This document shows positions 5,934-21,187 of a stretch of DNA of 27,296 bases, piece by piece; position 1 is the stretch's first letter, and each line of letters opens with the position of its first letter. Position numbers and translations under genes: made by a program. Source of the stretch: a virus; IMG/VR virus record IMGVR_UViG_3300003885_000033, positions 1 through 27,296 of that record, one strand, 5' to 3'. The notes beneath the pieces were generated by a model. It was not told where the DNA came from. It was given only the letters and a program-made list of their open reading frames with translations, and searched no databases.

Positions 5934-6731
5934 TTAAGCCTGTATATATCTATAATCCATATCGTAACTAGTTGATGATTTCACATCACTTGAAGTAATG
6001 GCGAACCTTGGAGAATCTGGATCAGCTGCATCAGTAACATGCCCTGTTAAAGTTACTACCCGTCTATTTGCCAAAATATGAATCATAGGAAAAAAAGCAT
6101 AACCATTTAATGCTAAGTCAATTATAACTACCCCTGAAATAGCACCGGCAGTACTTACCGTTGCTGTACTTAGCTTAGATCTAGTCACCGACGATGCAGC
6201 AAGCTCAGCCGATGTCACAGCAAGAGCCGCGATTTTTGCTGTAGTAATAGCAAGTGCGGCAATTTTTGCAGTAGTTACAGCAAGAGCATTAATTTTTGCA
6301 GTAGTAACAGCGTTCGTTCCAATATTTCCAGCTGGTAAAACCCCAGATACATCAGCTGCTAAATCAACTTGACCCAATGTAATAACTTGATTAGCCCCCA
6401 AAGTTATATAATTCGGTGTACCGATTAAAGTAACATCAGTAGAGTTATCTGTTCCACTTGCATCGACACCTAAATTTGATCTCGCGCCTGATGCTGTTGT
6501 TGATCCTGTACCACCGTCTAGTATTGCTATTGCATCAGCCAATCCTACGCCGGTCGGAACATCACCATTTGAATCAAGTTTTAATACGTGATTCGCAGTT
6601 GTCCCGGTTGCGTCAAGCATTTCTTGAACCTTTATTACTAAAGCATTCAATTCTGCTCTTGCTTGACTAGGATCATCTGAAGCCTGATCGAGGTTAACAT
6701 TCGTTAAGTCATTTATAGGATAAGCTGGCAT
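5934..6731 (-). CDS. Repeat-bearing tail fibre protein
   Basis: A 265-residue protein downstream of the tail-tip gene. Residues 1-45 form a helical N-terminus suited to attachment. DGGTGSTTASGARSNLG (72-88) is a motif shared by many trimeric phage fibres. Residues 141-190 contain five 10-residue repeats of the form (A/S)VTTAKIxAL, the kind of register that forms a trimeric stalk. Residues 195-265 make a strand-rich tip (VVIIDLALNGYAFFPMIHIL) which may contact the receptor. It begins three bases after the stop of the tail-tip gene. The assignment as fibre is fairly sure; receptor type is unknown. Confidence 0.8.
   Translation of the reverse strand: MPAYPINDLTNVNLDQASDDPSQARAELNALVIKVQEMLDATGTTANHVLKLDSNGDVPTGVGLADAIAILDGGTGSTTASGARSNLGVDASGTDNSTDVTLIGTPNYITLGANQVITLGQVDLAADVSGVLPAGNIGTNAVTTAKINALAVTTAKIAALAITTAKIAALAVTSAELAASSVTRSKLSTATVSTAGAISGVVIIDLALNGYAFFPMIHILANRRVVTLTGHVTDAADPDSPRFAITSSDVKSSTSYDMDYRYIQA
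6162..6311 (-). repeat. Five 30-base coding repeats in the fibre stalk
   Basis: Five in-frame 30-base units encode AVTTAKINAL, AVTTAKIAAL, AITTAKIAAL, AVTSAELAAS and SVTRSKLSTA. The first three are close to identical in DNA, the last two have diverged. Such arrays can expand or contract by recombination and so change stalk length. Confidence 0.85.
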
Positions 6732-6734
6732 TTA

Positions 6735-9700
6735 TTAAGCTCCTGAAATATATGCGTCAATTGTTGCATCGGATAAGGTGTTGCTAGAATTGTAGATTTT
6801 AATCCTCGGGCCAGTTACTGATTTATCAATGATTTCCCATGACCAACCAGCCCCGACATTTTGCAAAGCAATTTGAATATTTTTTATTGTTGAATAGCTT
6901 TTAACAATTGGTAGTCTGATATCACCTGCTACACGCGGAGATCCAAGATCGACAGTACTAGTATCTAAATCCTCAATATATTCATCAATAACTTCAGCAT
7001 CAATAATTACAGTAGCTTGAGTAACTATTACCGCTGTACTTGTATTTGTTATTGTTATTTTAAATTTATAATAACGTCCGTTAACTTGTAATCCTGAATT
7101 GGCATAGGCTGTAAATGTAATATTATCGTCACTATGTGATTCTTGAAGTGTGACCGTTGTTCCGTTTGATGTTACTGAGAGTAACGGGGTTACATCTAAA
7201 ATTGCACCGATATCAATAGCGGCTGTTTCATAAGTAACTGGACTATTTGGATTTGTAGCCCATTCATTCCAATCAGCCCATGTTTGAATTGGTGATCCTG
7301 TTGCAAAGTTAGCCCATGTATATTGATCAGTTGCGATCAAATTTCCACTGATAGGATCAACCCAGCTATTCGTTTTAGTATCAGGAAAACCATCAGCATG
7401 AAAATCGACTGTTACAAGCGCATTTTTTATTCTTGGATCGCCTAAAGTCGAATCAACTAATACCGCATTGGTTGAATAGATCCCGGTAGTATCTACCGCT
7501 TTAATCCCTGCCGTATAACTTCCAGCTGCTAATTGGTTCGTTTCAAAAGGTAATTGTGTAATTAAACCAGTATGTAAAGCAGTTAGAGCAGACCATGCTA
7601 ATCCTGAACCAACAGCCGCGCGAATTTCATAGCCAGCAAAATCAACAGGAGCATTAGACGATGGAACGTAACCGCCATCAAATACCCGTGTACCATCTGA
7701 TAAACGTTGAACTGTAAATTGATCACAATCAGCAGGTGCAGCTAACTTACCAATCACAGTATAACTTGTAAGACTTAACCAGCTTGAACGTACACTGATA
7801 TTATTAATCGCTCTAACTCTAATGTCGTAACTTATACCATCTTGAACAGGCGAGATAAATATTTGAGTAATTTCTAAGTTAACAGTATTTGAAGCCGGGG
7901 TATAATTAGTAGCAGAAGTTAATTTATATTCAACTTCATAGCCTCCAATATTTTGATCAATTGAAGCTGTCCAGCTTACATTGATTCTTGAAATAATCGT
8001 GCCGTCGAGTGCTTTTAGTAAATCAGAATCGCCACTTGATAAGACTAAAACAGTTGGAGGTATTACAGTTTGATTCGGAGTATCAGCGACCGCTGTTAAA
8101 TCTTCAGGTATAAATTGAATCCTAACAGCTGCATCACTTCTATCAAATGATGGAGTTCCATATCCTGTATAGAAACTTGAATAGCTGCCATTCGCACCAA
8201 GAAATGTTACAACATCCCGACCGAGTATTGTAGCTGATGGAAGTGGGACAGGGAAAACAGGGGTATCACCATGATCTGCAACAAATTCTATTCCAGTATT
8301 TGGAATTGTAACTGATGTTCCATCAAGTAAACATAACCAGCAACCCGGTGCGCCGCCACCACCTCCGCCAGTTCCGGATTGACCACCGTTAACAATATTA
8401 TAACTACTACCATCAATGCCAGAAAGATCAATCTTTCCAGATACACCAAATGAAAAACCACGACTAACAGTGACTAAACCTGCACCACCTGCACCACCTG
8501 CACCACCTGAACCAGCGTATGCGTTCACTTGCCAAAATGAACCACCAGCCCCACCGCTACACCCTCGTAAATCTGTTGGGATGTTAGATAAGGTATTAGC
8601 TGTAGTATTATTTATTAATGTAAAATATTCAATCGCATCAACTTTTCCTTTTGTTAAAATGGATTCATAAGAATATCCATAATAACCAGCTGGAAAATAA
8701 AGCTGTCCGCCAGCCTGAGTATTACCGAAATACCCCGATGTTCCGCCTGTTGCTGGTGGTGTCTCATCAAGTACAGGTGCGCCAGCCAATCCTTGACCTT
8801 TCCCATCAATTGTACCGTTTATTGTTATATGACCTTTAATTCTTAAATCAACATTATTCGTAATAGTAACTGTTACACCAGCATCAATTGTTAATGGTGC
8901 ATCATAATAATAAATAGTCGCAGGATTTGATCCTGCAATAGTAATATCAGCTGTAATATGTCCAATTCCGCCACTTACAGAAAATGCTGAAGGCGAACCG
9001 AGGCCATCAATATACGTTTTTAATTCAGTTCCTAATGTTGTATAAAATGCATCATTTAAAACACTTGATGCAGTACCGAGAGCGAGCGCACCCGCACTTT
9101 GCGAGCTTCCAAATAGATCAAGAGATACATTACCAGTTAACCAATTTATCGTAACTCCTTGTACTTCAAAAGAACGATCCAACGGTGCAAGAGCCCCATT
9201 AAAATCTCGAACGTTTTGTAAATCAACTCTTACAATATCACCGACTTCGAGAACGTTTAAACTCGGTAAACAATCTACTTTTATTTTAAGTGGTGGCCCT
9301 GCATAGCGATCTCTTAATGAATTAAATAGATTAAATATTGATTCTTCTGTATGGCGTTGTCCACTAAGGCCACGGAAATTCAAATTTTTTAAATTTGATT
9401 CACCATGTTTTGAAATACTTACAGGATCAATTACTAATGTAGTTCTTGTATAATCTTTTTCTGTATCATTCCAATTCCAGTTTATTTGAAAGCTATTCAG
9501 AATAGATCTCATATCATGGTTTAGCTGACTATAGTTTTTAACATTTTTAATGCTTAAAACTTTTACAGCACCAGCACCAGCAAGGATACTAGACATCCTG
9601 CGTAATCCAAGCCGACCATCGCTATATATCGGATTATAAGATCCAAGCAATAAATTTAATTCAGTTTCAATAAACTTTTTTGCATCTTGCTTTTTAATCC

Positions 9701-13248: not shown

Positions 13249-13455
13249 TTATTTTTTAACTAAATGAGACAAACTATTTTTAAAGTTTTTCGCGCTGTTT
13301 TGACGTTTTTCAAAATTTCCGGATTCAATATACGCATAAGCTAACGTTTCAATTAATTGAGTAGTTGTTAACTGATTTAAATATAGACTTGGATGGGCAT
13401 AACCCAGACGAAAAGCGAGATTAAATAAATCTAACTGTCTCGGCTGGGAAGCTAT
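13249..13455 (-). CDS. Frameshifted extension of the tail chaperone (gpGT-like)
   Basis: Between the chaperone stop and the tape-measure start, the -1 frame is open for 68 codons (IASQPRQLDLFNLAFRLGYA at its beginning, ending in LSHLVKK) and has no start codon of its own at the right place. Read through a -1 shift at the A7 tract, it gives a 183-residue fusion. This is the conserved arrangement of lambda gpG/gpGT and its relatives, in which the longer form binds the tape measure and the shorter coats it. Its stop is ten bases before the tape-measure ATG. Confidence 0.85.
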   Translation of the reverse strand: MASQPRQLDLFNLAFRLGYAHPSLYLNQLTTTQLIETLAYAYIESGNFEKRQNSAKNFKNSLSHLVKK

Positions 13456-13799
13456 TTTTTTGCGGTTTCGACAATATCATCATCTTTTATTTGAGACATT
13501 ATGTTATATGATTTTAAAACGCGGTCGAGAGCATCAGCACTTGTTTTATTTAGTTGATCGATTTGTTCATCAGAAAAAAGTCGATCGCCTTTTTCTGTTA
13601 CTAAACATTTCGAGGCACAAATACCTCGAAGCTTCCGTAACTCTAAATCATTATCAGTCTTTGTTAACATTTCTTCATACTCTGCACGCTCGTAGCCTGT
13701 AGGCTCGCGCAATAATATTTCACCACCCCACTCAGGGATATTTATTTGTTTTACTTTTAACTTTGCTGATAATATTTGTTCCGCTGTTAATAATTTCAT
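13452..13799 (-). CDS. Tail assembly chaperone (gpG-like)
   Basis: A 115-residue protein between the tail tube and tape measure genes. It opens with a helix and LKVKQINIPEWGGEILLREP, the usual beta start of HK97-type tail chaperones, and has LRKLRGICASKCLVTEKGDRLF in the middle (strand followed by a helix rich in charged residues). It ends at TAG directly after two AAA codons. Together with its frameshift product it should keep the tape measure soluble during tail assembly and is not normally part of the virion. Its ATG lies directly next to the stop of the tail tube gene. Confidence 0.85.
   Translation of the reverse strand: MKLLTAEQILSAKLKVKQINIPEWGGEILLREPTGYERAEYEEMLTKTDNDLELRKLRGICASKCLVTEKGDRLFSDEQIDQLNKTSADALDRVLKSYNIMSQIKDDDIVETAKK
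13455..13461 (-). other. -1 ribosomal frameshift site in the tail chaperone
   Basis: The minus strand reads GCA AAA AAA TAG. The heptamer A AAA AAA is in the correct zero frame (X XXY YYZ) and is followed at once by the stop codon, which favours pausing. Slippage by -1 continues into the open frame described above. Confidence 0.85.
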
Positions 13800-15444: not shown

Positions 15445-15968
15445 AATATACTTTTTGATGCCTTATCAAGATCGGGATCAAGATCGTAGAGTGAGACTAA
15501 TTGAGTCATAATCCCATCCTTAATTCGTTGAGGAACCGCTGACGCGTTACTATAACCAGCTGTCATTCTTATCGTGATAGGATTTGGCCTCGATGCTAAA
15601 GAAGGCCAGCCACCTATAGATCTAACTCTACCGCCTTCAGTTATAATATCCGCGTAATAATCAACATCAACGACTAAAGTAAGTTGAACAGATGGTGAAC
15701 TAGTATCGTAATACTTTACAGAATCAATCGACTGTAAAGGCCAAGTAGCAAGACCGAATTGTGTCGATGGCCATCTATCTAGATTAAGATCGATTACAGT
15801 CGGCATAATGTAAATACCACAATAATTTTCTGTAAATTCACGCGCTGACTTTATAAGACCAGAAATTCTATCGTCCTCATCATCATGTAAAATACTTAAC
15901 TTCCCTTTAGCTTCAGCGATAGTTACAGGCTCAGCTTTTGGCTCAGTTATGATCGTAAATGTTCCCAT
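15423..15968 (-). CDS. Head-tail connector (HK97 gp6-like)
   Basis: A 181-residue protein of the gp6/phiE125 gp8 family. EPVTIAEAKGKLSI, DDEDDRISGLIKSAREFTENYCG and the following strand with IDLNLDRWPS are characteristic, as are PLQSIDSVKYYD in the middle and PNPITIRMTAGYSNASAVPQ near the end. It forms the ring under the portal. It would normally follow the capsid gene closely, but here more than 4 kb of other genes lie between. Its start overlaps the end of the sugar-modification cassette by 22 bases, so the cassette is co-translated with the neck. Confidence 0.88.
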   Translation of the reverse strand: MGTFTIITEPKAEPVTIAEAKGKLSILHDDEDDRISGLIKSAREFTENYCGIYIMPTVIDLNLDRWPSTQFGLATWPLQSIDSVKYYDTSSPSVQLTLVVDVDYYADIITEGGRVRSIGGWPSLASRPNPITIRMTAGYSNASAVPQRIKDGIMTQLVSLYDLDPDLDKASKSILWPNRIL

Positions 15969-16567
15969 ACATCACCGTTTTTTATTTCGTTATAATTCCA
16001 ATTCGCATAGGGTAACAATTCAAGCCAATTTTCATTTAGCAAGATACTATTTGAACCCTTACAATTTATTTTTAAACCAGATAATGCTGCCTGTATTAAA
16101 GCAGTTGTATTATAACCAGTAGCACGATTACATTTATCAATGTCATTCTGCAATGTGCTTTCATATTTTTGATTTGCTGGATGTAGCCTGATAATATCTG
16201 CTTGTTCTTTAATACCGTTATAATCGGCAAGAAATAAAGAACTATTTCCTTTTGGCTCATTTATTCTTAATTTCTTACGACCTATTCCAATCTTATAATT
16301 ACGTCCGCCGATTGTATTCATCCAGCCAATGGACACGTGATCATTAAAAGATAAGTAATAATTTCTATCTAATAAAATAACCCGGCCATGATTAAGCCAT
16401 TGTGATTTAGCATAATTCGGGCCAAGTACAACATGAACATCAGCCTCTTGTGTAACTGATGATGTTATTTCTGATTTTAGATTATGTTTTAAGAAACCTT
16501 GTTTAAATAACTTGGCTTGTTCGATTTGATGCGCGTAATTAAAGTTTGTGTGAATGGCAATAGCCAA
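15947..16567 (-). CDS. Glycosyltransferase-like protein (GT-B type suspected)
   Basis: A 206-residue protein, last of the cassette. It begins at a TTG with GAGG ten bases upstream; no ATG occurs before the conserved-looking IHTNFNYAHQIEQAKLFKQG. Features are DVHVVLGPNYAKSQWL, RVILLDRNYY, VSIGWMNTIGG, and, near residue 153, GYNTTALIQAALSGLKINC. The last resembles the sugar-nucleotide-binding G-x-TTAL-x-EA element of GT-B enzymes and of capsule or teichoic-acid glycosyl/glycerophosphotransferases. It overlaps the upstream glycosyltransferase by 79 bases. Enzyme class is a moderate inference; the donor is unknown. Confidence 0.55.
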   Translation of the reverse strand: MAIAIHTNFNYAHQIEQAKLFKQGFLKHNLKSEITSSVTQEADVHVVLGPNYAKSQWLNHGRVILLDRNYYLSFNDHVSIGWMNTIGGRNYKIGIGRKKLRINEPKGNSSLFLADYNGIKEQADIIRLHPANQKYESTLQNDIDKCNRATGYNTTALIQAALSGLKINCKGSNSILLNENWLELLPYANWNYNEIKNGDVWEHLRS

Positions 16568-17145
16568 TTATCGTTAACCTCGTGTGGATCTGGTTTCCCA
16601 TGAAAACAAATTACTTTTAAATCTTTTGGTAAATTATTTTTACAATGATATTTATATGAACCTATTCCCGGAATTTTTACCCAGTTATCTTTTAAAAGTT
16701 CTGTTAAATATTCCTGATCACCCCATAGCCGTTCACGATCATTAACATAGTCAAAATGATCGTAAGGTTTTGACCAATTACCCGGCCAGCACATAACAGA
16801 TGATTGTATTCCGCCATGACCTGATTCCGCCCAATTAGCAGGAGCTGAAAACGTATTAGTAAAATTGACTAAATAATCAAGATTCCCAGTTATAACAACG
16901 TCGAGATCAAAATATATTGTTGGCCCTATTGCGATACGTGGAGCAAACAATCCTATCTTTTGCCACCATCCATTATAAGGGACAAAAGGTAAAACAGTTT
17001 GAATGCCTTCTAATTTTTCAGTCGTTATACATTTAAAGGTATGCGGAATAGTTAAATTCTTTTTAACCATTTCCTTTAATGCGTAAACGTATGAAATATC
17101 GTATTTATCACCCCAATAGACACAAAGGATTGTTAAGTCACTCAT
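16489..17145 (-). CDS. Glycosyltransferase, GT-A fold
   Basis: A 218-residue protein. LTILCVYWGDKYDISYVYALKEM starts a nucleotide-sugar-binding Rossmann-like half, and TIYFDLDVVITGNLD (residues 76-90) carries the metal-binding DxD (Asp80, Asp82) in the usual context of family 8-like transferases. ANWAESGHGGIQSSVM and RLWGDQEYLTELL, then ICFHGKPDPHEV (the conserved His near the C-terminus), complete the pattern. The last 25 residues overlap the next gene and look unconserved. It overlaps the upstream methyltransferase by four bases, consistent with one translation unit. Confidence 0.8.
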   Translation of the reverse strand: MSDLTILCVYWGDKYDISYVYALKEMVKKNLTIPHTFKCITTEKLEGIQTVLPFVPYNGWWQKIGLFAPRIAIGPTIYFDLDVVITGNLDYLVNFTNTFSAPANWAESGHGGIQSSVMCWPGNWSKPYDHFDYVNDRERLWGDQEYLTELLKDNWVKIPGIGSYKYHCKNNLPKDLKVICFHGKPDPHEVNDNWLLPFTQTLITRIKSNKPSYLNKVS

Positions 17146-17681
17146 CGAGGTCTAATTATATTGTGATATATATTTTTCATATCTGGCATTTTAAAATCAT
17201 AGTGATCAACTTTTAAAAGCCTGACACATAAATTTCGATTCGGCTGTTCTCTACCTATGCCCATGTATTCTATTTCATATCCATTTTCTGAAAACTGATA
17301 AAAAAATTCCTCCATGGGATAGTGAGTACCATGCCACCACCAATCACCTTGTAATGGTGTTAAGCTGGCAATAATTCCGCCTATATCTGTAAGATTATGA
17401 ATATTTTTCCATACTGCTTTTTGATCACTAACATGTTCAGTTGTCCCGATATTCGTAACCATGTCAAACGGATCTAAATCTATAGTCTTTCTTAAGTCTA
17501 AATTTAATGCGCCGTCCTCACCATTCCAATCGATTGATGTATGATCCATTCCTAAACTTTCAAAATAATCCTTATAAACACCGTTTGAATTTTTCTTATT
17601 TCCTAATTCAAGCATTCGATTTCCGACTAAAGGCCAGATAATTACCTGTTCATCTTCGGGCACTGGATTTATAATTTTCAT
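17142..17681 (-). CDS. SAM-dependent methyltransferase
   Basis: A 179-residue class I methyltransferase. MLELGNKKN (23-31) is the SAM-binding motif I, Asp51 in TSIDWNGEDG ends the second strand, and PFDMVTNIGTTEHV (71-84) matches motif IV with the following helix. GGIIASLTPLQGDWWWHG follows as the fifth strand and a substrate-side loop. The pattern of a short enzyme lacking a large extra domain fits small-molecule, sugar or protein side-chain methylation rather than DNA methylation: there is no NPPY/DPPY motif. It overlaps both neighbours by four bases (ATGA). Confidence 0.8.
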   Translation of the reverse strand: MKIINPVPEDEQVIIWPLVGNRMLELGNKKNSNGVYKDYFESLGMDHTSIDWNGEDGALNLDLRKTIDLDPFDMVTNIGTTEHVSDQKAVWKNIHNLTDIGGIIASLTPLQGDWWWHGTHYPMEEFFYQFSENGYEIEYMGIGREQPNRNLCVRLLKVDHYDFKMPDMKNIYHNIIRPR

Positions 17682-18172
17682 AACTCAGCCATTATTAAAA
17701 CATCCTTTTTTTTGTTCAAAACAATCATGTCAACAATATTCAATTTGTAATCCATCCAATCAAACCGCTGAGTAATTAATAAATATTTTGAGTTACTTTT
17801 CTTTAGGTTTTCAAAAGCAATATTATGCTCTATCAAAGGGAAATGATTTAACACCCATAAACACATTAACAAATCTGATTTAGGTGGTACTGTTGTTAAT
17901 AAATTAAAACTATTAACGCTCTTATGCCTAGGCACTAAATCATAAGCTTTGTATTTAACATCAATACCGAATTTAATTTTACTTATCCAATTTAGATCCC
18001 CTGCTCCGATATCAGAAATTGTTTTTATTTTTAAATCTTCGATTATTTTAGGTATCCATAATCGCTGTTTTGAAGTTGTTGATAATTTAGATCCATGACC
18101 GCATTTAGTTTCCGGTAGGCCACTTAACCAACCAGTTTTATATTTTTCAACATTTGTAATTATATTAGTCAT
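17678..18172 (-). CDS. Second SAM-dependent methyltransferase
   Basis: A 164-residue class I methyltransferase. ISDIGAGDLNWI (52-63) is motif I with an unusual Asp-Leu-Asn-Trp continuation, Asp78 in YKAYDLVPRH ends strand two, and SDLLMCLWVLNHFP (99-112) is motif IV. It lacks the full C-terminal strands of larger enzymes, so it is compact or slightly truncated. It has no DNA-methylase catalytic motif. It is unlike the neighbouring methyltransferase in sequence, so the two are not a recent duplication. Four-base overlaps on both sides tie it to the cassette. Confidence 0.75.
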   Translation of the reverse strand: MTNIITNVEKYKTGWLSGLPETKCGHGSKLSTTSKQRLWIPKIIEDLKIKTISDIGAGDLNWISKIKFGIDVKYKAYDLVPRHKSVNSFNLLTTVPPKSDLLMCLWVLNHFPLIEHNIAFENLKKSNSKYLLITQRFDWMDYKLNIVDMIVLNKKKDVLIMAEL

Positions 18173-18657
18173 AAATAACTATTGTAAATTTTTACCGCTT
18201 CAAAATCTGGATGTTCATAAAACCACGGCTGAGTAGCCAAGCTAGTAAAGTGTAATAATTTCATTCCGGGAATAACTTTATCTTTAACATTCCATGATAA
18301 AGGAATTGTTTTTGATTTAGGTATTAAATGTTCACTGTGTTTATCACGGCATAAATGACTAGTTCCAATTACAGATACTTCAGTACTACCATCCTCCATA
18401 CATACAAAACGACCTTTTTCATAATACGACCATAATTCGGCAATATCACCTAGAATAATCATGTCGCAATCTAAATAAATTCCGTGGCTGATTTCATATC
18501 TAACGTTTGTAAATCCAGTACAACCGGCTTCAATTTTTGGGTAAAGATATTTGATTTCAGTAGGCGTATTTGTGTTTTGAATTATCGAACGCTCAGTTAA
18601 TCCTTGTGTGATTCTGAAGCGTTCAGAAATTCCGATAAAGATTGGTATGGGTAACAT
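18169..18657 (-). CDS. Glycosyltransferase, GT8-like
   Basis: A 162-residue protein starting LPIPIFIGI, the first strand of GT8-like phage transferases. YLDCDMIILGDIAELW (61-76) carries the DxD metal site (Asp63, Asp65). VCMEDGSTEVSV and, near the end, PGMKLLHFTSLATQPW supply the conserved His that contacts the nucleotide. The substrate-binding region between strands appears shorter than in bacterial GT8 enzymes. It overlaps the DUF115-like gene by 61 bases with no clear ribosome-binding site, so expression probably depends on upstream translation. Confidence 0.8.
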   Translation of the reverse strand: MLPIPIFIGISERFRITQGLTERSIIQNTNTPTEIKYLYPKIEAGCTGFTNVRYEISHGIYLDCDMIILGDIAELWSYYEKGRFVCMEDGSTEVSVIGTSHLCRDKHSEHLIPKSKTIPLSWNVKDKVIPGMKLLHFTSLATQPWFYEHPDFEAVKIYNSYL

Positions 18658-19262
18658 TTTAATGCGCTATTTTTTGTGCAGTTTATAATTTCAATTCCAT
18701 AATCTTCAGGCTTAATTGTTTCAACTTCTTTAATTAAACCCGTCATTTCGCCATCTGATCCTGTTCGTGGCCAGTGTTGCAATTTATTAGGATACTCACC
18801 GAAATAATGCCTATTTCCAGCATATTGACTATCATTTACCTTTCCGGGATACCGCATATCCCAACCTATTAAGGCCATTTTCTTTACGCCATAATGTAAA
18901 GCTAAATTTAAAATTTGTGGGCCTGATCCATGATGTGCGTGGATATAATTCTTATCAGTACTTAATCCCGGCTCCCATATTTCCTCTATGTAATTAATAC
19001 TGTATTTTCTTGCGCTTTCAATCCTTGGAGTCCATTTATGACATTTATATTTTTTTATATCAGACCAGTAATAATCCCAAAAATCAAAATTACACGCTAA
19101 CATAACATCAACATCAAATTGATAAGCTCTGTTAACTCCAAATGTTTTATATTTTTTTACTAAGTTAACTTGTTCTATCGTTAATGAGGGGCCTGTACCG
19201 ATGATAACGCCAATTCGATCCTCATTTTTGGAAAACAATTTAAATTTGTCTTTCTTGAACAA
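18597..19262 (-). CDS. DUF115/MptE-like protein, paralogue 2
   Basis: A 221-residue protein. The frame opens just after a stop, and the first usable starts are TTG codons at 19262 and 19238, with no ATG before the domain. RIGVIIGTGPSL (16-27) is the nucleotide-binding opening of the DUF115 / MptE-like family, FGVNRAYQ and VDVMLACNFDFWDYY follow, and HHGSGPQILNLALHYG with MALIGWDMRYPG form the second conserved block. It ends EIINCTKNSALKCYP, which closely matches the end of the preceding domain, so the two are tandem paralogues. The family is found beside glycan and flagellin glycosylation genes in bacteria. It overlaps the preceding frame by 82 bases. Confidence 0.75.
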   Translation of the reverse strand: MFKKDKFKLFSKNEDRIGVIIGTGPSLTIEQVNLVKKYKTFGVNRAYQFDVDVMLACNFDFWDYYWSDIKKYKCHKWTPRIESARKYSINYIEEIWEPGLSTDKNYIHAHHGSGPQILNLALHYGVKKMALIGWDMRYPGKVNDSQYAGNRHYFGEYPNKLQHWPRTGSDGEMTGLIKEVETIKPEDYGIEIINCTKNSALKCYPYQSLSEFLNASESHKD

Positions 19263-19774
19263 TTAATTATCTCAATATCTTTTGTTATCGTTTTAAAGGA
19301 TTCTATAAATTTATTAAAAGGTGAACATACATCTAATTCCTTTGGATGTTTTCCGAAATAGTGATCGCCAAACATATCAAAACCTAATAACAAAATCGTT
19401 TTAGCTCCTAATAAATAAGCTAAATTAACAGCTTGAAATCCTGAATTACCACCACCCGGAATTCCATAATGGATCATTTTTTCACCCAGATCAGGCGATT
19501 GCTTCGAATTTACCCGAACAATTTCATATTCTTTATTAGGGTTTCTACTTTCATTATTAAGATCGTTAATAGTATAAGATATACCAGAAAAACTAGCCCT
19601 GACATTGTTATAATGTAAATCCCACCACTGAGAATCACACGCGTAATGATAAGGAGCATTAAGTGCTAATTCCCACGCATCATTTACTGTGATAACTTGC
19701 GTCTTTTCAATTGCGATTTTGACATCTTCTTTTTTGATACTTTGACCGGTTGCGATAACTGTGTAGATTGGCTG
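19181..19774 (-). CDS. DUF115/MptE-like domain without its own start, made by frameshift
   Basis: An uninterrupted frame of 197 codons encodes a complete DUF115-like domain: PIYTVIATGQSI, QVITVNDAWELALNAPYHYAC, then SQWWDLHY, GGGNSGFQAVNLAYLLGAK, ILLLGFDMFGDHYFG, and the ending EIINCSRKTNLNCFP. It aligns with the next gene over its whole length. No ATG, GTG or TTG occurs in this frame between the upstream stop (19793) and an ATG at 19477, in the middle of the domain. The natural route is a -1 shift from the gene starting at 19956, at the A9 tract, giving a fusion of about 258 residues. A sequence error in the homopolymer would give the same picture. Starting at 19477 would remove the nucleotide-binding half. 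Confidence 0.75.
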   Translation of the reverse strand, partial: QPIYTVIATGQSIKKEDVKIAIEKTQVITVNDAWELALNAPYHYACDSQWWDLHYNNVRASFSGISYTINDLNNESRNPNKEYEIVRVNSKQSPDLGEKMIHYGIPGGGNSGFQAVNLAYLLGAKTILLLGFDMFGDHYFGKHPKELDVCSPFNKFIESFKTITKDIEIINCSRKTNLNCFPKMRIELALSSVQAPH

Positions 19775-19956
19775 TTTTTTTTTGGCTCGTATTTAATATC
19801 TACTTTAGTCTCGTAGTCGATCATTCTCTCAGCAGCTCCGCATTCGTCAACCAGATGATTTAAAAAAGAAATTGGATAATGTTTATCACTAATAATATCA
19901 CCACGAGAAAAATCACCATAAGGTGTTATAGGATTCGCTATAATTTTAATTTTCAT
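19684..19956 (-). CDS. Small protein upstream of the DUF115 domain (zero-frame product)
   Basis: A 90-residue frame beginning MKIKIIANPITPYGDFSRGD. Small proteins of this look, with a beta-rich start and 'YGDF..GDII', commonly follow capsid genes in siphophages; I cannot name the family. Residues 1-60 look like a real domain. Residues 61-90 are a Ser/Lys/Gln-rich tail read from DNA that in the -1 frame encodes the start of the DUF115 domain, so the tail is probably only the non-shifted end. An upstream in-frame start at 20031 would overlap the capsid gene and is less likely. The ATG at 19956 has no direct ribosome-binding site (see 19946-19989). Confidence 0.65.
   Translation of the reverse strand: MKIKIIANPITPYGDFSRGDIISDKHYPISFLNHLVDECGAAERMIDYETKVDIKYEPKKNSQSTQLSQPVKVSKKKMSKSQLKRRKLSQ
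19774..19783 (-). other. A9 slippery tract, probable -1 frameshift or RNA-polymerase slippage site
   Basis: The minus strand reads CCA AAA AAA AAC in the zero frame of the gene starting at 19956. It contains A AAA AAA (19783-19777) and A AAA AAC (19780-19774), both in the X XXY YYZ register, so a -1 shift enters the DUF115 frame. Nine As are also enough for transcriptional slippage; adding one A has the same effect. Confidence 0.65.
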
Positions 19957-19989
19957 AAATAAATGAGCCGTCCATGGCTCGGACTCCTT
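19946..19989 (-). promoter_or_regulatory. SD, start codon in a hairpin loop, and nine-codon ORF after the capsid gene
   Basis: The capsid stop overlaps AAGGAG (19984-19989). Eight bases later an ATG (19973-19975) opens a nine-codon frame, MDGSFIYEN, that stops at 19946-19948, eight bases past the ATG of the next gene. That first ATG lies in the loop of a perfect 5-bp hairpin, GAGCC (19976-19980) with GGCTC (19965-19969). Either the mini-ORF delivers ribosomes to the 19956 start by reinitiation, or the folded hairpin brings AAGGAG within about 11 bases of that start. Confidence 0.55.
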
Positions 19990-21187
19990 AAAAACTAGCA
20001 GTAATAAAAGATTCAGTTCTAAAAACAACAAGGGCGATCCGTTCTTCAGCTCGGATAGTTACCATGTTCTTTTCAAAGTTAGTTGAGTTTTCATAACTAA
20101 TTTCAACAGCTGCCGCGTTCCGATCTTTGATTTCTGAACTCATAGCGAAAGCACCAACTAGAACAGTCGCGGCTGGCATTGCATTTGTTACGATAACAGG
20201 AATACCCCACAAAGTAGGCTGACTAAAAGCGCGAGGATTTCCTACAACATAACGAATGTCAGTCGCGGAACTTCCAACTTTAAGAACATCAATTTCATAC
20301 CAGTCTTGAGGATTCATTAAAACAGCATCAGGTGTATAATTTGCGATCTGTGCTTGCTTAATCATTTCCCGAACGATATCAAGTTTATTAGTCAGATTAG
20401 GAGATTGTACTGTGTAAGCTGTTGCTTGAGTATTTATCCCATTTAATTGACCGTTTGCACCTGTACCAGAAATCAATTGATTTTCTTCATACAACTTTAA
20501 ACCATACATCAAACGACCATTAATAAAGCTTTGTAACTGAACAGAATCTTCAATAACTTGCTTTGACGCTGGGATAAAATGCGCTAGTGTTTGTACTGGC
20601 TCAGTTGCTAAAGTAAATGTAATCGCTGATTCAGGTTTAGTCACATTTTCAAAAGCTTCAGGAGAGCCGCCAATTTGAGGCCCGGCATTATTTGTATACG
20701 TATTTTCCCGAACAAACTCAATCAAATTTGAAGTTGTTGAACTAGTAGGAATTAAATCACGCACCATTAATTGACGGTTGACAGTTGTATTAATTCCAGT
20801 AAGACGATCAGCAGCTACTAGCGGCTGATTTTGACCAGTTGCATTAATAATAGCAGCCTTAATATCCATTCGAGCAATCCCAGCACGGCCATCTTGCATT
20901 TGTAAGAATTGATCACACTTAATAAATTGTGTTCCTATATCATCATCATAAGTTTCTTCTTGAATCTTAACGCCATTTTGTTCAATGGCCATCATACGAT
21001 CACCGAATTCATTCAGCTTTTCAGAAATACCGTCGATAGCCGCTTTTGTTTCGAGTGAAACCTTGCCAGCTTCTTTAGCCTCTCCATTGGCTTTTTCGAT
21101 TGAAACATTCAGTTCTTCTTGCTTTGCTAAAAATGCTTTTTCAACCATTTTCAAATCATAAAATTCTTCTTTTTGCTGCATATCCAT
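19988..21187 (-). CDS. Major capsid protein, HK97 gp5 family
   Basis: A 399-residue capsid protein with GGAG eight bases before its ATG. Residues 1-75 form the charged coiled-coil scaffolding (delta) region removed by the prohead protease; the cut is expected near residues 105-112. The mature part has the full HK97 pattern: EFVRENTYTNNA (E-loop), EPVQTLAHFIPASKQV, LYEENQLISGTGANGQLNGI, PDAVLMNPQDW, LWGIPVIVTNAMP and NFEKNMVTIRAEERIALVV at the end. The chemical crosslinking Lys/Asn pair of HK97 itself cannot be confirmed by eye. It is flanked by a terminator-like hairpin upstream and the SD/hairpin element downstream. Confidence 0.95.
   Translation of the reverse strand: MDMQQKEEFYDLKMVEKAFLAKQEELNVSIEKANGEAKEAGKVSLETKAAIDGISEKLNEFGDRMMAIEQNGVKIQEETYDDDIGTQFIKCDQFLQMQDGRAGIARMDIKAAIINATGQNQPLVAADRLTGINTTVNRQLMVRDLIPTSSTTSNLIEFVRENTYTNNAGPQIGGSPEAFENVTKPESAITFTLATEPVQTLAHFIPASKQVIEDSVQLQSFINGRLMYGLKLYEENQLISGTGANGQLNGINTQATAYTVQSPNLTNKLDIVREMIKQAQIANYTPDAVLMNPQDWYEIDVLKVGSSATDIRYVVGNPRAFSQPTLWGIPVIVTNAMPAATVLVGAFAMSSEIKDRNAAAVEISYENSTNFEKNMVTIRAEERIALVVFRTESFITASF

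Follow-up and report, generated by a model that had tools for sequence, protein, structure and literature searches.

In the window, the 27,296-base IMG/VR virus record analysed here, a programmed -1 ribosomal frameshift very probably joins a small capsid-adjacent protein to a predicted DUF115-domain glycosyltransferase. The overlap of the two reading frames, a domain frame that lacks a start codon, conserved slip sites in phase with the upstream gene, and junction hairpins in roughly half the sister clusters together point to programmed -1 frameshifting, a reading drawn from comparative sequence evidence.

Reading frames and slip site in the window

Window features are given on the minus strand throughout. 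The small gene (19684..19956, 90 aa) starts at ATG 19956, and this zero frame runs through CCA AAA AAA AAC to a stop at 19684. The DUF115 / MptE-like / Maf-CstII-like glycosyltransferase domain (19181..19774) lies in the -1 frame relative to the small gene. That frame is open from 19792 to 19181 and has ATA ahead of the domain, with no ATG, GTG, or TTG. Two slippery heptamers, A_AAA_AAA (19777..19783) and A_AAA_AAC (19774..19780, replaced by A_AAA_AAG in clade relatives), are placed for a -1 shift into it. From conservation we predict a trans-frame product of about 258 aa (19181..19956); a shift at A_AAA_AAA would give 60+1+197 = 258 aa. The original prediction had described a start-less DUF115 frame, both heptamers in the -1 register, and products of about 90 and 258 residues from one start; the sequence bears out the first two points and reproduces the lengths.

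The A9 run itself (19775-19783) was dropped as evidence, as nine-A runs were not enriched in the window (2 vs 6.4 expected from shuffles). Since the run is unremarkable alone, the test was conservation of the arrangement in relatives. Judged by the sequences compared, that conservation exceeds chance, which the A9 run alone does not.

Conservation among close relatives

Viral contigs were scanned twice, which gave the relatives L005-L013 with domain identities of 59-81%. All retained the order capsid, small gene, DUF115, all kept the -1 relation, and none had a start codon in the domain frame. The junction reads GCA AAA AAA AAG in L005, L006, and L007 and GTA AAA AAG in L008, L009, L010, L011, L012, and L013, so that the window ends in AAC where its relatives have AAG. 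A_AAA_AAR was found at the junction in 7/7 clade clusters (85% identity, window included), three of which carry A9 and the other four A6. Six As form invariant columns in an alignment of eight junctions, whereas Lys-Lys codon pairs elsewhere in the clade ORFs are variable. A_AAA_AAG is the slip site of dnaX and of the IS3 type. Two more distant homologues, L014 (36% identity) and L015 (28%), have their own ATG in a different context.

Run length and fusion state in relatives had been put forward as a check on the original prediction, and the relatives answered it with A9G or A6G, the same -1 relation, and a missing start. That the -1 relation and A_AAA_AAR are kept from A9 to A6 speaks against both a sequencing error and a principal role for polymerase slippage. 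RNA polymerase is known to slip on long A runs, and its stuttering on A9, found in the window, L005, and L006, could join the frames in the mRNA. We consider this unlikely, because L008, L010, L011, L012, and L013 have only A6 with the arrangement unchanged, and because the D3-type relatives described below have no homopolymer and carry C_CCN and hairpins instead. Across clusters there is no conserved long homopolymer at the junction, which has A9 or A6 in the window clade and C_CCN in most other clusters.

The domain could also be a separate gene with a non-canonical start (ATA or ATC), translationally coupled to the small gene. The window has ATA at 19792 and an in-frame ATC near the domain, and some D3 members have GTG or TTG. 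In L012 and L013, however, GTC replaces this ATC, so there is no conserved near-cognate start; self-starting homologues use ATG in 14/15 clusters, and conserved slip codons and hairpins would be left unexplained. We regard such a start as highly improbable.

The arrangement in the wider family

We extended the search with queries from phages D3 and Psp6 and with mixed profiles. A tblastn search of annotated phages gave matches in 71 of 50,697 records, and the same gene anatomy was present in many phages and prophages. Altogether 149 loci entered the analysis and 148 were classified, giving 68 clusters at 85% identity; L139 was left out before clustering as it had no motif by the search pattern. 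Loci that were not clustered were L001 (the window stretch itself), L002-L004 and L009 (contigs already represented), and L007, L023-L078, L082, L084-L087, L091, L093, and L103 (duplicates or near relatives of included loci). The 86 loci L022-L107 held 52 distinct junctions.

The overlapping -1 arrangement was found in 53/68 clusters, none of which (0/53) had an ATG in the domain frame, while 14 of the 15 clusters without the overlap had one (Fisher 1.2e-13; as with all cluster p-values here, related clusters are treated as independent and the value is too small). A capsid match lay upstream in 52/53 overlap clusters vs 1/15 non-overlap clusters, and part of the dichotomy may reflect descent, the groups differing in genomic context. 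At 60% identity 25 overlap clusters remain and the pattern survives this thinning in the sequences sampled. A homologue starting from an ATG of its own at this position had been named as the counterexample to the original prediction. No overlap cluster has such an ATG, and the one self-starting homologue downstream of a capsid gene was L107, whose small gene does not overlap the domain. A single GTG in the domain frame occurred in 5/53 overlap clusters. Four loci (L090, L114, L126, and L131) have one GTG 28-35 codons before the motif, and the D3 group has GTG or TTG 20 codons before it, absent in L079, L080, L081, and L083. A candidate in-frame fusion of the capsid to the small gene in L117 was rejected, as the capsid there has its own frame and stop.

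The small-gene ORF crosses the domain start in the overlap clusters, and the zero frame stays open for 58-211 nt beyond the domain motif in 53/53 of them; in 9/15 self-starting homologues a stop occurs at +16. The zero-frame tail had been described as low-complexity; this uniformly open frame shows it to be more than a leftover.

The window record was assembled, and its junction contains a homopolymer; an error in sequencing or assembly could mimic this layout, as could a recent mutation that shifted the frame and inactivated a once-continuous gene. The same frame relation recurs in 53 clusters with differing junction sequences, and both frames are open across the overlap, which leaves an artefact or a decayed gene scarcely credible.

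Slip sites in sister lineages

In-phase heptamers of the form XXXYYYZ stood at 23/1866 positions inside the overlaps vs 13/3525 in the remainder of these ORFs; the two other phases gave 3/1919 each. Outside the window clade, an in-phase C_CCN stood 11-16 codons ahead of the motif in 40/46 overlap clusters, and in 28 of these 40 the distance was exactly 12 codons. The base before the zero-frame Pro at -12 was C in 31/31, whatever amino acid it belongs to, and in 14/14 clusters at 60% identity, compared with 67/373 for other Pro codons of the same ORFs. The slip codon (n = 40) was CCT in 26 clusters, CCC in 12, and CCA and CCG in one each; CCT or CCC thus made up 38/40 vs 99/323 control Pro codons (p 8e-16, overstated because the clusters are related). 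The CCA codon belongs to the D3 group, phage D3 itself being among the overlap loci with the junction C_CCA_AAG, and the CCG codon to L097, which also has C_CCT_TTC nearby. The codon after the slip codon was unconstrained. Each of the 6/46 clusters without a near C_CCN had a full heptamer (C_CCT_TTG, T_TTT_TTG, G_GGA_AAC, C_CCA_AAG, G_GGA_AAA, and G_GGA_AAG), so that a full heptamer or C_CCN was present in all 46.

When the codon after C_CCT is unrelated, the site falls outside the canonical tandem-slip heptamers. On such a site the P-site tRNA-Pro would, with the A site still empty, slip by -1 and re-pair with CCC; single P-site slippage of this kind is less canonical than tandem slippage. 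According to the available part of PMC5009743, A_AAA_AAG and C_CCA_AAG are highly shift-prone in E. coli. The window clade and D3 have these same heptamers, whereas most D3-type lineages use C_CCY, in which only the P-site codon is able to re-pair.

Junction hairpins

We compared 45 nt at the junction with dinucleotide shuffles. In the 46 overlap clusters that do not belong to the window clade, the median z was -2.19, with z<-2 in 25/46 and z<-3 in 17/46, while two control stretches deeper in the gene had z<-2 in 1/46 and 0/46, and self-starting homologues in 1/15. After thinning to 60% identity, z<-2 was found in 10/24 clusters outside the window clade, vs 1 and 0 in the controls. The stem GGCCGCTGGC/GCCAGCGGCC starts a few bases past the slip codon. 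Covariation in the D3-type hairpin was not significant (185/500 shuffles), and the conserved ASGP motif encoded by one hairpin arm may explain this. A stable junction hairpin was absent from the window clade (0/7), and no Shine-Dalgarno-like stimulator was seen by eye in the window.

The DUF115 domain

The domain matched phrog_4603 (annotated as alpha-2,3-sialyltransferase) at E 4.5e-36 over residues 10-195, and PF01973 (MptE-like, formerly DUF115) at 19 bits, under the curated cut-off of 34.6. Its AlphaFold model has a pLDDT of 91. The top fold alignment was to the Maf glycosyltransferase 5mu5 (Z 14.7, 168 residues, 3.0 A), followed by CstII 1ro7 (Z 12.9, 176 residues, 3.3 A), with an archaeal HPPK trailing both (Z 10.5). 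Foldseek alone gave no PDB match below E 0.001 for the domain model, and the DUF115 profile had no match among PDB sequences. The domain shares a predicted fold with Maf and CstII (GT42) and the DUF115/PF01973 family and a profile match with phrog_4603; it differs in its low PF01973 score, and its likeness to Maf and CstII is one of predicted fold. A Maf/CstII-like transferase is the best call for the modelled domain, which agrees with an earlier description of it as a sugar-related enzyme domain; its activity as an enzyme and its role are putative.

The small protein

In the model of the small protein, residues 1-45 are predicted to be folded and are followed by a low-confidence basic tail. 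For its fold, the best Foldseek match in the PDB was not significant (E 1.3), and a search against PDB sequences gave one match at E 0.051. The Pfam family DUF7210 matched 3/29 relatives up to E 0.1 (best 5.4e-05), the window protein being unmatched. The small protein of L088 had no match among the 50,697 phage records.

Upstream of its ATG, the small gene of the window has no close Shine-Dalgarno sequence (19956-19990); an AAGGAG stands beside the capsid stop, some 28 nt upstream, and a small hairpin (GAGCC..GGCTC) is found between AAGGAG and the ATG. Many relatives have a terminator-like hairpin between the capsid and small genes. In L107, near-identical short repeats (TACATGCGGGGGCCCCGTTAGT) occupy about 1260-1360 between these two genes, and this locus is the sole capsid-linked one with its own domain ATG.

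Neighbouring genes

The major capsid protein gene (19988..21187; Phage_capsid 2e-45; phrog_10) lies upstream of the small gene. Downstream, a tandem paralogue, DUF115-2 (18597..19238), most likely starts at TTG 19238, judging by an ATG close to the equivalent position in L012 and L013. Its open frame (18597-19262) overlaps the end of the first DUF115 domain in the -1 frame. A second frameshift into DUF115-2, at an in-phase T_TTA_AAT, was considered and set aside given the ATG near its start in L012 and L013. A cassette (15947..18657) encoding GT8-like, methyltransferase-like, phrog_1962 glycosyltransferase, and unassigned proteins follows, ahead of the head-tail adaptor gene. Within it, a gene with a TTG start (15947-16567) overlaps the glycosyltransferase gene by 79 nt (16489-16567), which is unusually long, and in L002 the equivalent frame appears to be interrupted near 8137-8658.

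The tail assembly chaperone gene of the window (13249-13799) ends in GCA AAA AAA TAG, where 68 codons are open in the -1 frame. By its sequence this resembles a conventional tail-chaperone frameshift that uses the same heptamer and, by inference, may serve as an internal control.

Comparison with known systems and public annotation

The closest parallel in form is the tail assembly chaperone pair G/GT of lambda, HK97, and many tailed phages, in which the same -1 slip yields a short and a C-terminally extended protein. That system involves other genes on the tail side, whereas the pair described here belongs to the head side, and its extension would be a folded, predicted enzyme domain some 200 residues long. 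The available part of PMC5009743 also describes Ig-like domains added by frameshifting to capsid or tail proteins of T3, A2, and other phages. These likewise place a C-terminal accessory domain on a fraction of a structural protein; in the present case the added domain would instead be attached to the product of the small gene that follows the capsid gene, and it is a predicted glycosyltransferase in place of an Ig fold. Frameshifting that extends a share of a structural protein with a C-terminal domain is therefore known, and here it would concern another gene pair. In the accessible portion of the open-access literature we found no paper describing this pair, and the available text of PMC3711429, PMC5009743, PMC9024508, and PMC10274946 does not mention it.

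In the phage D3 record (NC_002484), orf7 (5951-6409) is annotated from about 30 residues inside the domain and so omits the ASGPS motif region. Two other D3-like records omit one or both of the two genes, and none of the D3-like public records examined has a joined feature for the pair.

Proposed mechanism and role

Ribosomes would start at ATG 19956, and most would stay in the zero frame to give the 90-residue protein with its basic tail. A fraction would slip back one base on CCA AAA AAA AAC, at A_AAA_AAA or the adjacent A_AAA_AAC, and enter the DUF115 frame to make a product of about 258 residues consisting of the small domain, a linker, and the Maf/CstII-like glycosyltransferase domain. 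We infer that ribosomes rather than RNA polymerase make the slip, with an efficiency and a product ratio that the slip site would set, and we propose the role of the products on a similar footing. The downstream cassette and the place beside the capsid suggest virion modification and docking by the small domain. The small domain may dock on the head or a head-assembly intermediate, and the sub-stoichiometric fusion would then carry the glycosyltransferase to the virion for modification, together with the products of the neighbouring glycosyltransferase and methyltransferase genes. The case for head docking and virion modification is circumstantial.

Alternatively, the frameshift may be real and its product act inside the cell, for instance by modifying host surface sugars against superinfection instead of the virion. 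Maf/CstII-like transferases, which the domain resembles in fold, act on cell glycans and flagellin, and D3 is described in the literature as a serotype-converting phage. The domain gene is nevertheless capsid-adjacent in 52/53 clusters and overlaps the capsid-adjacent small gene in 53/53, and an intracellular product seems to us quite possible but less likely. For the family as a whole, we tentatively propose a widespread and so far overlooked recoding system in tailed phages. A head-proximal adaptor would carry a nonulosonate-type glycosyltransferase in sub-stoichiometric amounts set by the ribosome and so glycosylate the virion, and most lineages would use single P-site tRNA-Pro slippage on C_CCY before a hairpin in place of a canonical tandem heptamer.

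The very probable frameshift between the small gene and the DUF115 domain would extend the phage head module by a recoded pair of genes, in a position at which annotation pipelines omit or shorten the enzyme. The set of junctions could be used to test C_CCY and hairpins as drivers of -1 slippage, and enzymatic glycosylation of virions by phages would become directly testable in a laboratory Pseudomonas phage.
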